From Gigantopelta aegis (Eukaryota; Mollusca; Gastropoda; Neomphalida; Peltospiridae): a stretch of 64,000 nt of DNA. Shown piece by piece: positions 2,392 to 58,081 of the stretch. The notes beneath the pieces were generated by a model. That model was not told the origin of the DNA. It did not search any database and saw only the letters and a list, made by a program, of their open reading frames with translations. The translations under genes and the position numbers were made by a program. Numbering within the stretch: the first letter of the stretch is position 1; every line of letters begins with the position of its first letter. The DNA lies in contig NC_054706.1 of the NCBI RefSeq assembly GCF_016097555.1, positions 44,270,265 to 44,334,264 of the forward strand, given 5' to 3'.

Positions 2392-2715
2392 CTGAAATAA
2401 CGGTGCCAGTGACTGAGTGAATGTACAGAACAAGACTTCACATACAAGACTTGTAGAAAGTCAAATTACCCTCATGTACAATATTCTGACCTGTCACATA
2501 AAAAGTGTTATATGTGACCGTGCACAAACAAAAAATACAGGTAGCATATTCAAATATTTTTATATACATGCCCCCCCGACCACCCCCAAAAAAATAACCC
2601 CAACAAAAACAAACCATGTAGAATATTCAGATATTTCACATTTAAAAATATGCGCTTTTCACACAAACGCCTATTATTATATTTGAAAGTTTTAAAATGA
2701 ATTGTATTATGTTAA

Positions 2716-3034
2716 CAGTGTTCGAGATTAAAAATTTGGGACAGTATCCCAGTTGGATACTAACATTTCAAAATCTGGTATCCCACCTGAGAATTTAGTA
2801 TCCCACTTAAATGAAATTCGTAAGTAACATCGTAACAAACTTGGATGACACTGTTACTCAACTTTACCAGTAAATGACTACTTTCATTGTTTCAGCAAAA
2901 ATAATAATGCAGGATTAAAAAAAACAAAAAAAACATATGGTATCCCGGTGGGATACTGGGTTATTGAAGTCTGGTATCCAAAATTAAATTCTGGTATCCC
3001 CGGGATATCGGGATACCATTAATTTCGAACACTG
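2716..3034. repeat. Foldback MITE with CAGTGTTCGA termini
   Basis: The termini CAGTGTTCGAGATTAA and TTAATTTCGAACACTG are inverted and flanked by the 5-bp duplication GTTAA. Both arms carry repeated GGTATCCC/GGGATACC phrases. It is hAT-like in its CAG terminus, but the target duplication is 5 bp rather than 8. Confidence 0.75.
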
Positions 3035-3186
3035 GTTAACACATACCAGCATGAAAAAAACTAAAACATCTGAAATCTTTTTTTTTTAACAAGGCATCAA
3101 AAATGCCGAAAATCCTCTCAGTTTCATGATCCTATTCCAATGTGAGATGTTTTATAAAAATAAGGTAAAAAATAAGTGACTAGAGT

Positions 3187-3490
3187 GATGTTAAGATCCT
3201 ATCGATTCAGGAATGATCAAAATTGTCTGACTACCTTAGTTCAGCACCAAAATTGTCTGACTACCTTAGTTCAGCACCAAAATTGTCTGACTACCTTAGT
3301 TCAGCACCAAAATTGTTATTCTATTTTCAGCAGGGTCCCACATTTTTTAAGAACTAGTAGAAATTTACTGGCCAGATATTTTATAATAAACACTGTCACA
3401 TTTATTGCCAATGGCTGGACTGGTCTCCTTAACTGTGGAATGAAAAGTTGGGTGCATTTCAAACTGAACTGCTACTTGTACTCTTGATCA
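3187..3490 (+). repeat. Diverged MITE copy with a 30-bp triplication
   Basis: It contains three head-to-tail copies of a 30-bp unit (CTGACTACCTTAGTTCAGC core, about 3222-3315). The rest resembles the inner MITE at 43383-43841 (shared CACATTTAT, AACTG and GTGCA(C/T)CTCGAACT-type blocks). Confidence 0.55.
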
Positions 3491-3680
3491 ATGTCAATGG
3501 AAAAATAAATCTTATATTTCCTGCCTACAACTTGCGAGGTCGACAAATAAAACATTTTAATATTCAAATAGTTCACTCGACTTAATCCATATTTTGTTAT
3601 GCTTATTTCATGAAACTTCACTAAAAACTATTTAGCACAAATCTTCAGTTTGAAAATAGTTTTAGGTTAAACAGACATAC

Positions 3681-5167: not shown

Positions 5168-5310
5168 TACAATAACCCACTCGATACTCTGAATTACGGA
5201 TTATTCGTCCCTCATGAAATTAATGTCAGTAACTCGCTAAAGCTCGTGACCGACATTATTTCACTCGGGACATAATTTGTAATTCCTCGTAACTCGTAAG
5301 TTATTGTCTA
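5168..5310. repeat. Imperfect long hairpin beside the exon 8 donor
   Basis: The left arm starts ACAATAACCCACTCGATAC and the right arm ends TAACTCGTAAGTTATTGT. The two arms, about 68 bp each, pair with interruptions around the centre near 5240. It looks like a foldback element in the intron just 3' of exon 8. Confidence 0.65.
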
Positions 5311-31960: not shown

Positions 31961-32464
31961 AACAAGTTACACATGTTTACAAACTACATGCTCTCTCCTG
32001 TCACTTCAGTCAAATAGTTGCCACTTCATAGCTGTCTGCCATGACAACCAAATGGGAAGATAACTGAGGTCAGGTCATATGGCTTTACGTGCACATTCAG
32101 AGCAAGTTGTCGTAGCGCATGCTAAGATAACTGTAATCTAAGGCCATATCACCAACGAGATCCCGTAATGCTGTCGTTTCATTGGCCGGTGCTTCAAAAC
32201 AACTCTACGTGAGGCTCTCGGGGAACAAGCCCTGTATGAATCCAACAGTTTTTGATGGTCGTGGCACTAACAATGTTACCAAACGAATGCCGCCACCTAG
32301 TGGTAATTTGAGATCATTACCAGACCAGACGATTAACTTCTGACCACACTGTTGGTGGTATTATCAAGGGGATTTTAATGACTAAATGGAGTTCGGTACA
32401 AAAAGGACTTTTGCGGATGGCGAAGGTGGCAGTGAATCGAGGGTACACTGTAATTGAAATGGAA

Positions 32465-32650
32465 AGTAGTACAAGGGCCTATATAGAGCCATAACCTACT
32501 TTCCGTGAACTTGACCTTGGTAGGTGTCTGACCTTGGTGTGAGTCATAGACTGACCTTGCCATACTTGGTAGGTGTGTGTCATAGACCGACCTTGACACA
32601 CTTGGCAGGTGTGTGACCTTGGTGTAAGTCATAGCCTTGACGTACTTGGT
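32465..32650 (+). repeat. Left terminal inverted repeat of the Polinton-like element
   Basis: Pairs with 35775-35960 inverted; shared blocks include AAGGGCCTATATAGAGCCAT and CCTTGGTAGGTGTCTG. Confidence 0.85.
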
Positions 32651-32858
32651 ATGTAACTCATGGCTTAGTCTTGACCTACTTAGAGGGCAGTTACTGGTAG
32701 GCAGGCGCACGAATTTGGCACAGGTGTGTGCCCGACTTCCATGAATAACCGTGCCCCTGACCTACTTAAACTAGTCGCGTCGTGTCCTTGGACTGTCCCC
32801 GAATATTGTCCTTGACCTAGTTACGACTGGCCATGACCTATGTAGGCTCGTATTGGGA

Positions 32859-32867
32859 TATAAAAAG
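32859..32867 (+). promoter_or_regulatory. TATA box of the BIR gene
   Basis: TATAAAAAG stands 97 nt before the ATG at 32964. A start site about 30 nt downstream would leave a short leader. Confidence 0.65.
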
Positions 32868-32963
32868 GGGGTGTTTTGTTAGTAGCGTCATTCGCTTGCC
32901 GAAAGTTCTGTGAACGAGATCTATTTTTGCTTTGGAGTTTGAAGATATTCTAGTACGAAGAAA

Positions 32964-33443
32964 ATGGCATCGGGATATTCGAGCAGTGTTAGTAGCAGCA
33001 GCAGTAGCGACGAGGACGACGTCTTGGTCTGCAAATGTTCAGAAAGACATACAATCAGTGACTACCAAACACGTGAAATTGGGGTTGGAACTGAAGAAGG
33101 CGAACTCGTGGATGAACCCACAGATCAGACGGATGCTGCCTGTGAAACAGATGCTGCCTGTGAGGAAGACTGCTATTCAAGACGTTGCTTGTTCTGTCAT
33201 CGTCCCGAAATGATTTATTTCTATGGCCGGATGCTGACGTATGCTCGGTGGCCTATACAATTACGTCATAAACCAAAAGAACTTGTCAAGGCCGGTTTCT
33301 ACTACACGGGAGATCACGATGCCATCACCTGTTACTGTTGCGGACTTCGCGTCTACCGATGGAAGAAGACAGACGACCCAGTGATGGAACATTACAGACT
33401 CTCTCCAAGATGTCCCTATGTGAACAACATGTTCAGACATTAA
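32964..33443 (+). CDS. Single-BIR inhibitor-of-apoptosis-like protein, 159 residues
   Basis: A single-exon frame with ATG at 32964. Residues 1-66 are acidic and Ser-rich and include a DAACETDAACE repeat. Residues about 86-155 form one BIR domain: RMLTYARWP, GFYYTG, then zinc ligands C123, C126, H143, C150 in exact CX2CX16HX6C spacing, with W133 and EHYRLSPRCPYV. BIR domains bind caspases or IAP antagonists and block cell death (family knowledge). There is no RING, CARD or UBA domain. It has its own TATA box and an AATAAA at 33490, and lies just inside the left terminal repeat of the Polinton-like element, so it is read as cargo of that element. The frame looks whole. Short single-BIR proteins also occur in mollusc-infecting herpesviruses, so a viral source is possible. 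Confidence 0.85.
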   Translation: MASGYSSSVSSSSSSDEDDVLVCKCSERHTISDYQTREIGVGTEEGELVDEPTDQTDAACETDAACEEDCYSRRCLFCHRPEMIYFYGRMLTYARWPIQLRHKPKELVKAGFYYTGDHDAITCYCCGLRVYRWKKTDDPVMEHYRLSPRCPYVNNMFRH

Positions 33444-33487
33444 ATGTTTCAGACACTTGTGTGCTAAGTTTTCATGTTGTATGTTGT

Positions 33488-33496
33488 GAATAAAAC
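33488..33496 (+). terminator. Polyadenylation signal of the BIR gene
   Basis: AATAAA about 45 nt after the stop codon, followed by a GTTTTGC-type U-rich stretch. Confidence 0.55.
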
Positions 33497-33714
33497 CGTG
33501 AATAACAGGTTTTGCTTTCTTATTTATGTCCTGCGTCCATGAGTGTGTCTCTAGACGTGTCCCTATGGTAGTGACACTGGTAAAGGGTAACATTTTGGTA
33601 ACGATGTTTTTTGGGAGCTCGCGCGAGGAGTTTTGTGCTTGGGAGGAGGGGCACTGGTCATACGTATCACACACATTCGAACTTTCCTGTACCATATCTT
33701 TATGCGTCATAAGG

Positions 33715-33722
33715 TATATAAG
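33715..33722 (+). promoter_or_regulatory. TATA-like box before the Gln-rich frame
   Basis: TATATAAG lies about 40 nt before the open frame, the same layout as the BIR gene. Confidence 0.5.
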
Positions 33723-33754
33723 TAAAATAGTTTTGGAAAACTCATTTGAGGTAG

Positions 33755-34108
33755 AACCTTCAGAGGAGCAACTTGTCAGACCAGTACAAGTTATATGTAC
33801 TCGAAGTGGATAAGTGGACCCGTTTCTATAAACAACAGGCACAAGGTAAACTTCAACGTCACTTCGAAATTCAACGTGGTGGGAAAAGTCAGATCATGTA
33901 CAGTGTGGATCGATGTCTAGAACTCTACGATCCCACGTGGAAAGAAGAAAACGAGGAACAGAACAAGCCCCCGACACCCGAAGTAGTCATGGTCTCCCCA
34001 ACACAACAGGTGGTAGAGCAAGCCAAGGCCGATCTGAAACGGAAACAACAACAACAACAACAAAGTGGTACGGGTTGGAAAGCCCCGAAACTGCAGAAGC
34101 ATTTCTAA
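33755..34108 (+). CDS. Gln-rich charged protein frame, cargo of the Polinton-like element
   Basis: Open frame of about 115 codons. The first half has DQYKLYVLEVDKW and a basic GKLQRHFEI segment. The second half is Lys/Glu-rich with a (CAA)n-coded Gln run and ends PKLQKHF. No family recognised. The translation start is not assigned, and it is described only as part of the fossil element. Confidence 0.5.
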   Translation, partial: NLQRSNLSDQYKLYVLEVDKWTRFYKQQAQGKLQRHFEIQRGGKSQIMYSVDRCLELYDPTWKEENEEQNKPPTPEVVMVSPTQQVVEQAKADLKRKQQQQQQSGTGWKAPKLQKHF

Positions 34109-34159
34109 ATAAACTATAAAAGAAACTATGTGGGTCAGATATCGTCATTTTATTTAGAG

Positions 34160-34232
34160 TCGTCATGCAGAGCACATGTTCAGAATGTGGTTTCACATTC
34201 TCGAGGAGAGACGCCATGTTAAGACATTTTTA
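34160..34232 (+). pseudogene. C2H2 zinc-finger-like remnant
   Basis: Short frame with CSECGFTFSRRDAMLRHF, the front of a classic C2H2 finger. Too short to be a working protein by itself. Confidence 0.45.
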
Positions 34233-34245
34233 ACAAAAACATGCT

Positions 34246-34430
34246 AAAGGTCTACCACCACCACCACGACCACAGCAGCAGCCACCACCACCACCATCAC
34301 CACCACCACAGCAGCAGCCACCACCACCACCACCACCACCACCACAGCAGCAACCACCACCACCACATCAGCAGCCACCACAGCAGCAGCCACCACCACC
34401 ACCACAGCAGCAGCAGCAGCATCTCCTAAG
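34246..34430 (+). repeat. (CCA)n/(CAG)n interrupted trinucleotide block
   Basis: Alternating runs of CCA and CAG over about 185 bp. The His-rich and Cys/Gly-rich frames here follow from the repeat. Confidence 0.9.
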
Positions 34431-34942
34431 ATAATACAGTATTAAAATATTTAAAGTCACATCAATCACATCAAGGTTATACACAGAGCAGAAATAAAAA
34501 TATTTACCAAAGTCCAACGGACTACGTTCCCTGGGAGCCTTCCTATTCTGGTTCTCCTCCATATCTCTAAAAACTAGCTATTTATTATTAAAAAACAGAA
34601 TTCGCCTGGGGGTACAAGGCGGTACCTCCCCCTATCATCTGATATTTCCAACGCGACCAAGCGGTATTATTTCTCTCTGATCGTCAGACTTACTGACGCC
34701 ATCGTCGCCAAATCACGGTTGTAAAAACCGCACTCGCAGAGGTATTACGTAACTACTCGCCACATGGCCTCCACAGCTGGACTAAGTGCATATTGGAATG
34801 CCCGATCGCGCGAAGTATTACGTAACAACTTGCCCACCTGGGCTACGGGCAATGAAACTGCACACGGCCCTCTAACACAATTAAAATCGCCACAGGCGAA
34901 ACAAATTTAAGCGCATGTTCCGTCACAGGTTGTTAAGTTATT

Positions 34943-35239
34943 ATGGAAGCCAATACTCACGAACCAAAACAATTATCAAGAAAGGTCACGATATTTCACA
35001 GGGACATTTCTAAACTGACAGAGCGAACACATGTTGTGAATTCTTCAAACGCCGACCTTTTGCCAGTTTTTTCTGTTAATATATTTGTTCTACACATAAT
35101 ATTTGATTTGTATGTTATTGTGTTCTGCACATGTTTGGGATTTTGTGCGTACGTTCTTGGTTTTGTCGTTTTTGATTCTCAGCTTGGTAAGTTATTATTT
35201 GATACAATTTATGTTTTTCTTTTCAATTTTGTTTGTTAA
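34943..35239 (+). CDS. Small membrane protein frame, 98 residues
   Basis: ATG at 34943. Residues 1-38 are hydrophilic (METANTHEP-like start, KLTERTHVV); the rest is strongly hydrophobic with VNIFVLHIIFDLYVIVF and LGFCAYVLGFVVF, enough for two membrane segments. No family recognised. Cargo of the Polinton-like element. Confidence 0.4.
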   Translation: MEANTHEPKQLSRKVTIFHRDISKLTERTHVVNSSNADLLPVFSVNIFVLHIIFDLYVIVFCTCLGFCAYVLGFVVFDSQLGKLLFDTIYVFLFNFVC

Positions 35240-35774
35240 AAAATGTCATTCAACCTACAATGAGATCAATAGTAGAGTTTGGTTTCTAAGGGGTATGTTG
35301 ACAAGTTGTTTCCTTCGCAGTAATTTCTTTCCCTGGGGAAGTCTTCGGTCGTTGAGTAACTTTTTCTCCACAGCAACACTGAATGTAGATCTCGTTTGTA
35401 TACTTATACTTGACAAGCGAATGAAGATACTAAGAAAATACTCTTTTTATACTCTAAATTAGCAGTCCAAGGTCAGTCCAAGGACGTCAGAACCTGGCCA
35501 AGACCAGCGCAAGGACGTCAGTACCGGCCCAAGTATGCCAAGGCTACAATATGAGTCACGGCTGCATACCTGCACCAGGTATGTCAGTCACTGCCCTCTA
35601 GATAGGTCAAGGCTACCAAGGTCGCACACCTGCCTAGGTATACCAGTCACTGCCCTCTAAGTCGGTCAATGCTAAACAAATCGGCCAGAGCCAGTCCAAG
35701 TACGTCAGTAACAACCTAAGTCGGCCAGGGACACGGGCGGGCGTTCACCCTAGTAGGCCACGCAGCTGTCCCAA

Positions 35775-35960
35775 GTGTGCCAAGGTTAGTCTATGACTCA
35801 CACCAAGGCCAGACTCCTGCCAAGTGTGCCAAGGTCGGTCTATGACACACACCTGCCAAGTATGTCAAGGTCAGTCTATGACTCGCACCAAGGCCAGACA
35901 CCTACCAAGGTGAAGGTCACGGAAAGTAAGTCATGGCTCTATATAGGCCCTTACACTACT
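35775..35960 (-). repeat. Right terminal inverted repeat of the Polinton-like element
   Basis: Inverse of 32465-32650. The region to its left (35465-35770) carries more diverged CCAAGG/GTCAGT motifs. Confidence 0.85.
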
Positions 35961-35969
35961 ATGGAACAC

Positions 35970-36145
35970 CATATGTCCTGTGGAGAAGCAGAGTAGGTGA
36001 CCGAACATGTCATCCAAGATTGCAAATATGTACAGCAGAAGAAGCTGCACGGTACCAAAAAGTGATCTACAGAGACATGGATACAGCAAGAAATATTTTG
36101 TTAGCTAAAACACTTATTAAACTAATATGTGGCAAGTCGCTATAG
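35970..36145 (+). pseudogene. Possible Fanzor/TnpB-like C-terminal fragment
   Basis: Just outside the Polinton-like element the plus-strand frame has KVIYRDMDTARNILL. It resembles the RuvC-III motif RDxNAAxNI that ends Fanzor and TnpB nucleases, whose Asp is catalytic. The paired zinc-ribbon cysteines expected before it are poorly kept. A polyadenylation-like AATAAA follows at 36270. Sequence of the same sense also stands left of 32464, so the Polinton-like element may have landed in this gene. Confidence 0.4.
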
Positions 36146-36284
36146 CACTTGTTTAATGTATATACTATTTAGTCGTTCATTATTCTTATCATTAGCTTTA
36201 TTATTGCTGGGTCACCACTGTGTTTATACGTATATAATAATTATATGTATGCATCATATGTAAGCACGGTAATAAAGCATTTTG

Positions 36285-36307
36285 TATCGTATCGTATCGT
36301 ATCGTAT
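36285..36307. repeat. (TATCG)n microsatellite
   Basis: About five copies of TATCG. Confidence 0.9.
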
Positions 36308-36364
36308 CATTCGTAGTCACAGCTGGCTTCGACGTGTAGTCGTCAAGCGAACGAAAAGAAGAAG

Positions 36365-36669
36365 AGTTTGTTTTGTTTAACGATACCACTAGAACGCATT
36401 GATTTATTAATCATCGGCTATTCGATGCTAAACATATGGTCATTTTGACACCGTCATAGAGATGAAACCCGCTACGTTTTTCCATTAGTAACAAGGGATC
36501 TTTTATATGCATCATCCCACAGACAGGATAGCACATACCACGGCCTTTGATATATCAGTCGTGGTGCATTGCCTAGAGCGAGAAATAAACAATAGGCCCA
36601 CCGACAGGGATCGATCCTAGACCGACCGCGTATCAAGCGAGCGTTTTTCCACTGGGTTACGTCCCGCCC
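36365..36669 (-). repeat. SINE, head 1 + tail B
   Basis: Full-length minus copy. Tail GTTTTGTTTAACGATACCAC at the left, head CACTGGGTTACGTCCCGCCC at the right. Confidence 0.92.
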
Positions 36670-44287: not shown

Positions 44288-44318
44288 AATTTGACATCTT
44301 TAGTAACACTTGGAAACA

Positions 44319-45497
44319 ATGAGTCAGCCTTCAAATCAAACACGGTGGGAAAATTTCCTATCAGAGCTGAAGCCACTTGTTGGCCGAAGATCAAGAGGTG
44401 AACAGATAGAAAAGGATACGCTCGTTGGGCCAGCCTCTATCTCTTGGAAATTTGTAACCAGCTTAAGCCAATCGTTCGAAATAGATAAGGACACACAGGG
44501 CTTACAGTGTAATAAATATAGCAGAAAGGTTGGAACATATACGTCCGCTAACCAGCAGGAGGGTAATACAGAACGCGAGACGTCCACGGTATATACCCAT
44601 TCCAGTGAAGTGGAACCCAGTTGGAGTTCTCCATTAAAGGCAGCTGAACCAAACTCAAAGCCTGGTAATTATAGCAGAATGGTTGAAACATCTACGTCCG
44701 CTAACCAGCAGGAGGGCAATACAGAACATGAGGCGTCCACAGCATATTATATTCATTCCAGTCAGGTGGAATCCAATTGGAGTTCTCCATTAAAGGCAGC
44801 TGAACCAAAATCAAAGCCCATGCGGCGACCGTTATTCCAAATAGACGACCGAGCAACAAGCGTCAGTAAGTGGGATTTAAGTATGTTGAGTAAATATATT
44901 GAGTTTGAGGATGTGGAAAAGCTGAATGTCAACATTGATGAGGTAGACCAGTCAGAAGAAATGGAAAACATCATTCAGGGAACCCTGAACATGTTGCAAA
45001 CTTCTAGCATGAAGCCTAAACTCGGCGATGTGCTGCACAAAGAAGAAAATGTCAGGATGTTCCTGACGGCCATACTCCAAAAGGTATGCATGGAACGTAA
45101 ATTTGGTTTTAGAACAGAGGAACAAATTAACTTCAAATACATGCCAACTTGTAAGTTCGACTATTTGTTTCGCACACGTGAAGGAAAGCCGATCGGATGC
45201 ATGGAAGCAAAGACGTGTTCTAGTATGAACAGCAAAGCCTTCGCCCAGGCAACCATCCAGCTCCTGGTTCTACAGCAACTTGCTTGCAAGCACGACGTTG
45301 ACATTTCGACTGTTCCCGTGTTCAACATTCTTACCGATGGTCAGAGATTCGTGCTGATGCAAGTCATGGGAGATAAGATGTATCTGGAGCACGTGTCGAA
45401 AAACGGAGAGGAAGTACTGAAAATCCGCACCACTCAAGTGATGGAATCATTACTGAAAATCGTGGAAATGACTCTAAGTGTACTTCCTGAAAAGTAG
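44319..45497 (+). CDS. Uncharacterised protein with PD-(D/E)XK nuclease-like domain, 392 residues
   Basis: ATG at 44319, 32 nt after a strong acceptor, and a single open frame to 45497. Residues 66-115 and 117-167 are a near-perfect tandem duplication (SANQQEGNTE and WSSPLKAAEP in both), Ser/Thr-rich and probably disordered. Residues 240-365 look like a folded domain: a helix (VRMFLTAILQKV), CKFDYLF (D281), GCMEAK (E296, K298), then AQATIQLLVLQQL and VFNILTDGQRFVL. Asp, 14 residues, then Glu-x-Lys, followed by a Gln-rich helix, is the core of PD-(D/E)XK nucleases and relatives. So DNA or RNA cleavage is possible, but it is inferred from this motif only. No signal peptide or membrane segment. 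It could be a domesticated or mobile-element gene. No family recognised. Confidence 0.72.
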   Translation: MSQPSNQTRWENFLSELKPLVGRRSRGEQIEKDTLVGPASISWKFVTSLSQSFEIDKDTQGLQCNKYSRKVGTYTSANQQEGNTERETSTVYTHSSEVEPSWSSPLKAAEPNSKPGNYSRMVETSTSANQQEGNTEHEASTAYYIHSSQVESNWSSPLKAAEPKSKPMRRPLFQIDDRATSVSKWDLSMLSKYIEFEDVEKLNVNIDEVDQSEEMENIIQGTLNMLQTSSMKPKLGDVLHKEENVRMFLTAILQKVCMERKFGFRTEEQINFKYMPTCKFDYLFRTREGKPIGCMEAKTCSSMNSKAFAQATIQLLVLQQLACKHDVDISTVPVFNILTDGQRFVLMQVMGDKMYLEHVSKNGEEVLKIRTTQVMESLLKIVEMTLSVLPEK

Positions 45498-54757: not shown

Positions 54758-55219
54758 CCAGACCATGACCGTACCTAGCTGGATGGGGAGGGGGTTGGGG
54801 TGCGAGTGGTGTGCCAGATGCACCTACAGTAAATTACAAAATAGTACCCTTTTTAGTTTGACAAATTCCTTCTTTTTTTGTCTACCTGGAGAAATCTGTT
54901 CATTACTGTTCCCCAATTATTTTTGTACTGTCATTCCAATTATATTTGGCTTGATACGGCCTTACAGGCCTGAGATAACAATTAATTTCAAATATATCCT
55001 GACTTAGTATATTGCTAGATACGTATCAAATAAACAGCAGTTGCATGATTATTTTGTTTTTCTTTAGGTAGTTTTTGATAACGGAACACATTCAGGTGTT
55101 AATCAGTCAGTTATAGCATTGTCTTTTAAAAAAAAAACCCACCCTGCTTTTACCAGAGATTGCAAAATCCAACAATTTCACAGTTTAAAACCGTCTTTTC
55201 TTTCCTTTCTTTCAATCAG

Positions 55220-57874
55220 CTGTAAGCGTCGAGGGGGATGAAACTGGAATTAACGACTACCTGGCTGGGTCTGTTGATGGTGACCTGTCAGTAACCCATA
55301 GCGCCGAGCTGGCACTAGCTCTTAGTGAGGCACTTGCTGAAGAACCCAGTGATGAAGAAACCATATTTGAGTCAGTTGTCTTAGACGATGAAGATGAAGA
55401 CCTTGATGAAGATCAAGACACTGACAACGACGATGGGAACTTCAGCGATGAAGAAACACAATATGAAGAGGAACTGGAGCCTGAGGGCAGCAAGCACAGC
55501 AGTGTTGATCCAGGATCCAGAGATAATGGAGAAAACGCCGACAAACAAGGAACCAGTGAAAACAAAGACCAGACCAATGAACGTGGAAATAAAGTATATG
55601 GAAACATAGTTAGTTGGATTAGAGGTACAGCTAATGATGATATATCTGAAGGAAGTAAGAACGAAGTTAATACAAAATACGAAAGTAAAAGCATCGAGGA
55701 GGATGGTCTAACCAGTGTAAATAAAGATGAAACGACTAAGGATGAAGACAAAGTAAATAAGCATAAGGTTGGAAATACTGAGGATGAAAATGAAACTAGT
55801 GCTAATGAAGGTGAAAATACCGAGGAGGATGAATTCATTCAGAATGACGGTCAAAATACTGAAGATGATAAATTCATTCAGAATGACGGTCAAAATACTG
55901 AAGATGATGAATTCATTCAGAATGAAGGTCAAAATACTGAGGATGATGAAATTGTTCAGAATAACGGCCAAAAGACAAAGGATGATAAATTCATTCAGAA
56001 TGACGGCCAAAAGACAAAGGATGATAAATTCATTCAGAATGATGGTCAAAATACTGAGGATGGTGAAATTGTTCAGAATGACGGCCAAAAGACAAAGGAT
56101 GATAAATTCATTCAGAATGACGGCCAAAAGACAAAGGATGATAAATTCATTCAGAATGATTGTCAAAATACTGAGGATGGTGAAATTGTTCAGAATGACG
56201 GTCAAATGATTGAGGATGGCGAAATCATCCAAAATGATAGTGAACGTGAAATCAGTGAGAATGGAGGCCATAACAACAAGAATACAAACAAAGCCAATGA
56301 CAGCGCCGGTAAAACCAACATGAATAAAGGTGCAAACAATGTTCATGGAGGTAAAATCAAGAAGAATCTAAATGAAAACTCTCATAGTGCGAAAAAAGGT
56401 GGATTTGAAGCAAAGAAAGTTAACGGCAGAAACACTGCTAATACAAATAAGGCCAATCGTGAAAATAAAATCATTGGCAGTGGAAATGAAAACAGCAAAC
56501 AAAAAAGTAAAATCAATGGACATATAAAGAAGACCATTAATAATGAAAGTAAAAACATTGTTGGTGCAAAGAAACCCAGAGTGAATAACGGTAAAAACGC
56601 GACAGCAAATAAAACCAATCAGATTGCAAATGAAAAATCTGACAGGACAAAGCAAGCCAACATGGCCAACATGAAAAAAAGTAAAAACAAAAAAGGTGAA
56701 AATAAAACAAAGAATAAAAGCAAAAATGCAAATATAAAGACTGAAAATAAGGCGAGTAAAGAAAAAAGTGGAAACAAAAAAGGTAAACATGAAGGCAGTA
56801 CGAATAATGAGGTTAGCAAAACTAAGTCTACCAAGTATGTCAAGGCAAACACATTAAACAAAAATCAAACCAGTGGCAATAAACGTGATAAACAAAATGG
56901 CGCACCAAAAGCATTAGGAAATGAAAAAACAAAACAAGAGATTCAAAATGCATTGGCTAAAGAATATCTTGGACTTGCCAAGCTAAAAAAGCAAATTCAG
57001 AAAAAATTAGAATACATAAAGAATGTCGTCATTGGGGACGCGGAAAGTGATAATACAAATATAAGCGGCGCAACAAAGAATGTTGCCAGTGTGAGAAACA
57101 AAAACGGATATACTAATAAAAAAGTCGTGCTTGACAAACCTGTGATTGTTATTGAAACGGATAAGCCACCGGAGGTGCCGAATAAGCCACCGAAGTCGAG
57201 TGAGTCAAGGCGACTGGTGCATAAATTGGTTCATAGCATACTGGGACCCGAACACAAAGGGCAGAAACTACGAGGACTAACGGAGGCAAGAGTTATATTA
57301 CAAAAATTAATTCGCAGAATAACAGCCACCAAAGAGAACAGCACCACTGCAAAAACTAAGAAAAGCCACCGGGAGCAAACGAAACATCACCATAAAATGA
57401 CTGTTTTGGCGAAACAAATCACTGTCAATGAAGAAACCAAACCAGAAAAGCAAAGAAAGAAAAGACAACTACCTGTATTAGAAACATTGCTCAGCACGAA
57501 ATCTCAATCTCAAGATTTCATGAACAATAAAGTGAAGCAAGATGATTACAAGGAAATAAAAATACACTTTATACCGAAAGAGGAAGGCGGTGATTTTTCT
57601 AATGCACAAGGTCAATACAGTTCCATACTATCAACAGGTAAAACACAGGCTAATAATGCCTTTAATAATGATGATGATGGAAGAACAAGACGTAAACGAG
57701 CAGAGACAAGTGTAATCGATGAATATGGTGATGATTCCAATGAAGATTACTTCGTGGCGATTGGAACAGAACCTGGTGATAAGGTAGTCGAGGTCGACCC
57801 TGAGACTGTGGAGTATGAGGGATCTGTAAACGATGATATGGTTCTTGAATATATAGAGGAAGACGCAAATTCAG
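55220..57874 (+). CDS. TSP1-precursor exon 3: acidic, repeat and Lys/Asn-rich regions
   Basis: 2,655 nt, acceptor TTTCAATCAG, donor G then GTAAAA; one open frame throughout. It begins AVSVEGDETG right after the RPKR site. Residues 45-248 are Asp/Glu-rich. At 55831-56220 there are ten 39-bp units coding EFIQNDGQNTEDD-like 13-mers. Residues 390-760 are mostly Lys, Asn, Gly and Ser with NKTNK-type motifs. RKKR (790-793) and RRKR (868-871) follow. The frame stays open past the donor to 58050, but the spliced form leads into the TSP1 domain. Long antisense and +2 frames over the repeats are by-products. Confidence 0.88.
55831..56220 (+). repeat. Ten 39-bp coding tandem repeats
   Basis: Period exactly 39 bp, unit GAATTCATTCAGAATGACGG plus 19 nt. 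Two unit types (NTEDD and KTKDD endings) alternate as if pairs had been duplicated. An eleventh, partial unit follows. Confidence 0.93.
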
Positions 57875-58081
57875 GTAAAACAACTCACTCAGATAGTTTA
57901 GTGGTCATAGACTGTGTCCAGACTCAAAACGTTTGCAGTCTCAAGACATTAACTTCATTTTTGTTTGTACGATACTTTATTAAAGGGACTGTGCTGAGTT
58001 TGCCGCGTTGTAAGATGCTTACGACAGATTTAACATTTTGTAACGACTAGTATTACATATTAAATATAATTTCTTGTTTAG

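Follow-up and report, generated by a model that had tools for sequence, protein, structure and literature searches.

A short, probably non-autonomous Polinton of Gigantopelta aegis from a family that carries a BIR gene

The window analysed here is a 64,000-nucleotide stretch of the 1.149 Gb assembly of Gigantopelta aegis (C8:44270265-44334264), a peltospirid gastropod of deep-sea vents. At 32465..35960 it contains an element of 3,496 bp with a gene for a BIR (apoptosis inhibitor, IAP) protein. We conclude, with a probability of roughly 0.88, that this short element belongs, as a non-autonomous member, to a Polinton/Maverick family of G. aegis that carries BIR, and that it would be mobilised in trans and encode a putative anti-death BIR protein. 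BIR is a regular gene of this family and no special cargo of the window copy, and the family has spread it to at least 150 places in the genome. The best reading is an amplified, possibly satellite-like Polinton lineage with a viral-style IAP, in which the satellite step is the part that we infer.

Shared ends and long Polinton relatives

The element is delimited by inverted ends, a 6-bp target duplication and homologous copies. The left terminal inverted repeat (32465..32637, + strand) contains internal short repeats and shows homology to about position 32654, and the right repeat lies at 35788..35960 on the - strand. Both start with AGTAGT. The arms are 91% complementary over 173 nt without a gap and extend to about 190 nt if a 5-nt gap is allowed, in agreement with the 190-bp repeats beginning AGT that a first-pass annotation of this DNA had described. 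The exact 6-bp target duplication reported there is also present, as ATGGAA at 32459..32464 on the left and at 35961..35966 on the right. A search of the G. aegis genome with the left arm yields at least 65 matches (best 40 of 760 candidates scored). The terminal repeats are thus not unique, and the inverted ends of the window element are not due to chance because the left arm recurs across the host genome.

The family was read from 27 loci and the window (L029, L030 and L038 were excluded). Both ends could be read in 17 copies, 13 of which have an exact 6-bp duplication; it matches at five of six positions in L034 and L036, and none is clear in L012 and L019. BIR is present in 13 of the 17. 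A 16.4-kb copy (L013/L014) has the window-type ends and the duplication GCGGAG, and it encodes a polymerase (DNA_pol_B_2, 43.3 and 27.9 bits), an integrase (rve, 27.4 bits, below the cut-off of 32.6), PC4 (57.9 bits), an A32-like ATPase (Pox_A32, 18.3 bits, below the cut-off of 22.8) and BIR. The DNA_pol_B_2 score rises to 66.2 bits in L022. In the C4 copy, the integrase read in L020 exceeds both cut-offs (rve 51.8 and chromodomain 33.7 bits), and L039 holds an adenovirus-type protease (Peptidase_C5, 21.9 bits against a cut-off of 21.3). The profile of the integrase relatives matches PFV integrase and CBX7. The C4 copy also holds a 324-aa frame that may be capsid-like; the name is provisional and drawn from sequence resemblance. 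The homologous L014 pieces match no Pfam entry, and the double-jelly-roll major and minor capsid proteins of Polintons have at most candidate counterparts here.

These ends, the 6-bp duplications and the Polinton enzymes of the long relatives therefore identify the family as Polinton/Maverick. The enzymes encoded by the long relatives that share these ends are those of Polintons and not of another transposon class. The window copy has no rve integrase, PolB or protease. Since its ends and its gene remnants are homologous to those of the family, it is best described as a non-autonomous Polinton member, which supports the class assignment of the first-pass annotation.

Three of the two-ended copies, L016 (454-2469), L017 (481-1798) and L018 (407-3879), have exact 6-bp duplications and no match to the family genes searched. 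They resemble miniature inverted-repeat transposable elements (MITEs). L020 has two right ends, at 5262 and 7828, whose flanks begin alike with CATATCAACAC, and the locus contains two PC4-BIR-integrase sets, so that part of this Polinton looks tandemly duplicated. The Polinton copy L011 contains, at 2502-3563 on the + strand, a transposase frame of the Tc1/mariner type (HTH_Tnp_Tc3_2, DDE_3). A second integrase family with 46-48% identity makes up 18 of the integrase matches listed, with frames of 370-372 aa, 16 of them without a stop.

The BIR gene and the compact gene order

The window BIR gene (32964..33443, + strand) is one uninterrupted frame of 159 aa with a single BIR domain at residues 89-153, which scores 77.5 bits against Pfam BIR (cut-off 22.9). 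Its zinc ligands are C123-X2-C126-X16-H143-X6-C150 (Cys2-His-Cys), the CX2CX16HX6C pattern that had been noted before, and Pfam finds no RING domain in the 159-aa protein. A putative TATA box, TATAAAA, is located at 32859..32865 (+), 105 nt before the ATG, and a putative poly(A) signal, AATAAA, at 33489..33494 (+); both had been noted for this gene. The TATAAAA motif is found 104-105 nt from the BIR start codon in nine of ten aligned copies; an eleventh copy that was tried contains no detectable start motif. The BIR protein is a likely cell-death blocker.

The gene is one of a set. Eleven of the 17 two-ended copies (the window, L010, L011, L012, L019, L021, L024, L031, L034, L035 and L036) share the compact order end - (PC4) - BIR - MSDQ - C2H2/ATPase2, and L033, of which one end was read, has it as well. 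MSDQ is a working name for a small conserved gene, taken from its first residues. ATPase2 joins zinc fingers and a proline-rich stretch to an ATPase domain in one fusion protein. In L031 all three frames are open, with 179 aa for BIR, 110 aa for MSDQ and 504 aa for ATPase2. The latter reaches 19.5 bits against Pox_A32, below the cut-off of 22.8. The compact form would keep a packaging-type ATPase of its own. Among the compact copies read, PC4 occurs only in L036. Seven BIR copies that were hand-picked from across the genome at spread ranks of the match list all show the order BIR-MSDQ-C2H2/ATPase2, with PC4 in two; a family end was found in five, and end-like repeats are present in all seven.

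The genome-wide counts of BIR, ATPase2 and integrase rest on best matches only. The BIR protein has at least 256 matches, of which the best 150 of 1001 candidates were scored; 18 of these 150 contain a stop and 132 do not, giving at least 150 copies. ATPase2 has at least 109 matches (best 85 of 27313 candidates scored) and the integrase at least 116 (best 111 of 1671 candidates scored). In 39 of the 85 listed ATPase2 rows, a listed BIR is found 720-1306 nt upstream in the same orientation, and there are no opposite-strand BIR/ATPase2 pairs within 6 kb among the matches listed. Because the listings hold best matches only, a partner that is not listed is weak evidence. For the other 46 ATPase2 rows no BIR is listed. 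Three of them were read (L048, L049 and L050), and in L050 PC4 is accompanied by a BIR that is divided between frames.

Downstream of BIR, the window copy retains a remnant of MSDQ at 33773..34108 (+), with an open frame and a lost start codon, and a remnant of the C2H2/proline-rich start of ATPase2 at 34165..34430 (+), with an internal stop and without the ATPase core. By its gene content, the window copy is a decayed and shortened member of the compact multi-gene form; it is probably a late insertion. Of the earlier description of its cargo as BIR plus unknown frames, the BIR gene stands, and broken family genes account for two of the other frames. The proposal that the element is dedicated to an IAP gene does not hold, as BIR belongs to the regular gene set of the family and is also found beside integrase and PC4 in the 16.4-kb copy. 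That copy also leads us to reject the idea that BIR is unique to short elements.

A foreign interspersed repeat occupies the middle of the element (34431..34930) and is present twice in locus L026 with 82-84% identity. The subterminal region at 35279..35960 (-) matches the ends of copies L009, L023 and L026. An Rfam scan of positions 32000-36500 gave no match at the gathering threshold. Elsewhere in the window, two open frames on the + strand extend from stop to stop over 396 aa (44307-45497) and over 953 aa (55189-58050), the latter repetitive and charged.

Selection was assessed from pairwise comparisons. With long and short copies pooled, the dN/dS of BIR falls with distance from 0.89 at dS<0.05 to 0.50, 0.44, 0.31 and 0.25, and is 0.26 at dS 0.7-1.5. 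This trend is the pattern expected from constrained source elements and decaying inserts. For short copies only, at dS 0.1-0.5, dN/dS is 0.42 (0.27-0.66) for BIR and 0.38 (0.29-0.55) for ATPase2. These values point to purifying selection on both genes among the older short copies. At dS<0.1 the values for short copies are 0.56 (0.38-0.80) for BIR, 0.45 (0.22-1.03) for MSDQ and 1.07 (0.58-2.38) for ATPase2. The BIR of L036 is distant from that of L031 (dS 0.75) while MSDQ (dS 0) and ATPase2 (0.02) are nearly identical, which suggests that BIR modules are exchanged between elements.

Weighing the readings

In a trans-mobilised family, the rve/chromodomain integrase of the long copies would recognise the common ends and integrate the short copies, and the PolB of the long copies would replicate them. 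The BIR protein, expressed from its own promoter, would delay the death of a cell in which Polintons replicate. Such a delay would give Polinton copies time to arrive at new sites or, should virions exist, in these. Because BIR lies near the end repeat, internal deletions could spare it and elements could exchange it.

Several observations weigh against this picture. A listed ATPase2 is found within 3 kb for just 39 of the 150 listed BIR rows and a listed integrase for just two. The short loci L048 and L049 consist of an end, MSDQ and ATPase2 with no BIR match; among the 17 two-ended copies, the four from L015 to L018 show no BIR, and L032, a one-ended copy of the long type with integrase and capsid-like genes, has no BIR match either. 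The capsid-like pieces of L014 have no Pfam match and its N-terminal piece no PDB match. The pairwise dN/dS values are mutually non-independent, and the value of 0.41 for MSDQ in short copies at dS 0.1-0.5 has a wide interval (0.22-0.93). The window BIR is weakly constrained, with ω of 0.52-0.79 against its nearest relatives. Given its few private changes and that 5.7% of single substitutions would create a stop, its frame may have stayed open by luck. Preservation does not single out BIR, since it is broken in five of 12 short copies, a count that scores the window BIR as intact as its gaps of 49 and 11 nt sum to 60. The notion that the 3.5-kb copy was preserved for its BIR gene is thus unsupported: constraint on the window BIR is weak, and BIR was not specially spared.

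What kind of lineage the short copies form can be read in two ways. They may be repeated internal deletions of a longer ATPase2-bearing Polinton lineage that is now degraded or unsampled, in which case the selection signals would be inherited from that lineage and BIR would be a passenger. The locus at C6:69.74 Mb fits this explanation. It reads PC4 - broken BIR - integrase - ATPase2, with the integrase at 73% identity and with two stops, and by its gene order it appears to be a degraded fuller relative of the compact form. The dN/dS of the youngest pairs, near 1 for BIR at dS<0.05 and for ATPase2 at dS<0.1, and the existence of the shorter, gene-poor forms L016, L017 and L018 are also as expected from deletion. 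Independent deletions would, however, have to produce the same compact order in all seven sampled BIR copies and in 11 two-ended copies, and the dN/dS of about 0.4 at dS 0.1-0.5 suggests a form that reproduces itself. We consider repeated deletion a serious candidate at a little below even odds.

The other explanation is a satellite. The compact form would be a distinct parasite lineage that itself supplies no integrase, polymerase or capsid, whose own ATPase diverts the particles of helpers and whose IAP keeps the cell alive. Its ATPase2 shares just 38-39% identity with the ATPase of the 16.4-kb copy. The 85 listed ATPase2 rows span at least 399 of 504 residues at 83-100% identity, with a stop in 17 main rows and none in 68, and the ATPase2 dN/dS among older short copies is that of a constrained gene. 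A listed integrase (any of 116 rows) lies within 15 kb of only one of these 85 rows, and neither the 11 two-ended compact copies nor L033 has a match to integrase, polymerase or capsid. A form without these three whose other genes are conserved is thus what we find, with C6:69.74 Mb as a degraded exception. That exception points to an origin from a fuller element, and with the ATPase2 listing being the best 85 of 27313 candidates, a long ATPase2-bearing element may exist. We hold the satellite explanation tentatively, as somewhat less than an even bet. Its fullest version is more doubtful: a satellite Polinton lineage of about 4-9 kb without integrase, polymerase and capsid, with a selected IAP, a small protein and a zinc-finger ATPase, which exploits helpers, swaps BIR and makes up a large part of the "expanded IAP family".

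A host IAP gene or retrocopy caught by accident between inverted repeats unrelated to Polintons is very improbable: retroposition has been invoked for intronless single-BIR IAPs of molluscs (excerpts of PMC8917759), but this gene recurs at many places together with these ends and with Polinton genes, which contradicts an accident, and the element BIR forms its own clade (99/98, from few columns with a rough bootstrap and no ordinary G. aegis IAP). A BIR-carrying Polinton family with trans-mobilised short members remains the reading that we prefer.

BIR relatives and known systems

A profile search with BIR returned 67 proteins. In the BIR-domain tree (78 columns and 98 rows, with a rough bootstrap), a single clade unites the element family with nine G. 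aegis proteins listed at NCBI (P0002, P0003, P0005-P0008, P0130, P0131 and P0138) and two unnamed proteins from ENA. Several of the nine are named BIRC- or XIAP-like. The first-pass annotation had named host IAPs and malacoherpesvirus BIR proteins as the relatives to compare; a malacoherpesvirus IAP falls outside the element clade, and ordinary G. aegis IAPs are not among the rows of the tree. Scans of viral_contigs with BIR, integrase and the capsid-like frame found no relative.

Some annotated G. aegis proteins join BIR to other sequence. P0019 fuses it to an integrase/chromodomain, P0138 to MSDQ- and ATPase2-like sequence (by eye), and P0167 to a piezo-named gene. These are either mis-annotations or host exons captured from the element. 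P0001, P0004, P0013-P0016 and P0018, from short ENA, JGI and NCBI contigs, are 65-76% identical to the snail BIR or integrase; at this identity, such unnamed or loosely named proteins imply that there may be a second host or a free form. P0152, P0163 and P0169, from contigs of 4.9-13.4 kb, are unnamed short proteins with an N-terminal tail and one BIR at the C terminus, and from this layout they may be BIR genes of other Polintons; P0163 and P0169 found no relative in viral_contigs.

No BIR-carrying Polinton is reported in the titles and abstracts of the top-ranked literature matches, a set with subscription papers mostly outside it. The words "Polinton" and "BIR" co-occur in two papers, PMC6431247, where BIR belongs to Burro retrotransposons, and PMC8905726. 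The planarian Burro, also a mobile element, contains BIR as well as BCL2-like domains (PMC6431247, in excerpt). In contrast to the snail element, Burro elements are described there as giant Gypsy-like LTR (long terminal repeat) retrotransposons with a polyprotein, and their mechanism is unrelated.

The closest systems are Polintons/Mavericks and adintoviruses. Vertebrate Mavericks have (AGT)2 ends and 6-bp target duplications (PMC8097293, in excerpt), and adintoviruses encode an rve integrase with a C-terminal chromodomain (PMC11071296, in excerpt). The snail family shares these features and also the DNA_pol_B_2-type polymerase and the adenovirus-type protease; its A32-like ATPase, with scores below the cut-off, is a putative further one. 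It differs from these systems in the single-BIR IAP and PC4 near one end and in its common short form with a C2H2-ATPase fusion and no detected integrase, polymerase or capsid. Mammal-associated adintoviruses carry anti-apoptotic homologs, for which the excerpted text of PMC11071296 names no BIR protein ("IAP" is absent from it, and one "bir-" word occurs). Unlike those genes, the snail gene encodes a BIR protein, resides in a mollusc and is present in at least 150 genomic copies.

If the satellite explanation holds, the short form resembles the PICI phage satellites, small elements that hijack helper functions and capsids (PMC6431247, in excerpt). PICI are bacterial, we claim no homology, and helper dependence in the snail is our inference. 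Polintons of animals may then be accompanied by satellites in which an anti-death gene and a packaging-type ATPase are retained. Why a gene for packaging should be conserved where capsid genes are absent is difficult to see if packaging never takes place, and satellites of this type would, if real, make Polinton particle formation in animals testable.

For the host, IAP gene counts in such genomes may include mobile DNA, as the nine NCBI-listed G. aegis proteins indicate. IAP is listed among the expanded immunity families of G. aegis in the excerpted PMC7895826, and a word search of the main text of that paper finds neither "Maverick" nor "Polinton". Part of the counted immunity genes of this snail is probably mobile-DNA cargo. 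In oyster, IAPs include intronless single-BIR genes, and their expansion is ascribed to tandem duplication and partly to retroposition (PMC8917759). Mobile Polinton DNA would be a further route, beside these two, by which single-BIR genes without introns could spread in molluscs. The difference from the mollusc IAP expansions as described in the excerpts of PMC8917759 and PMC7895826 lies in the carrier, which here is a DNA transposon with Polinton ends.

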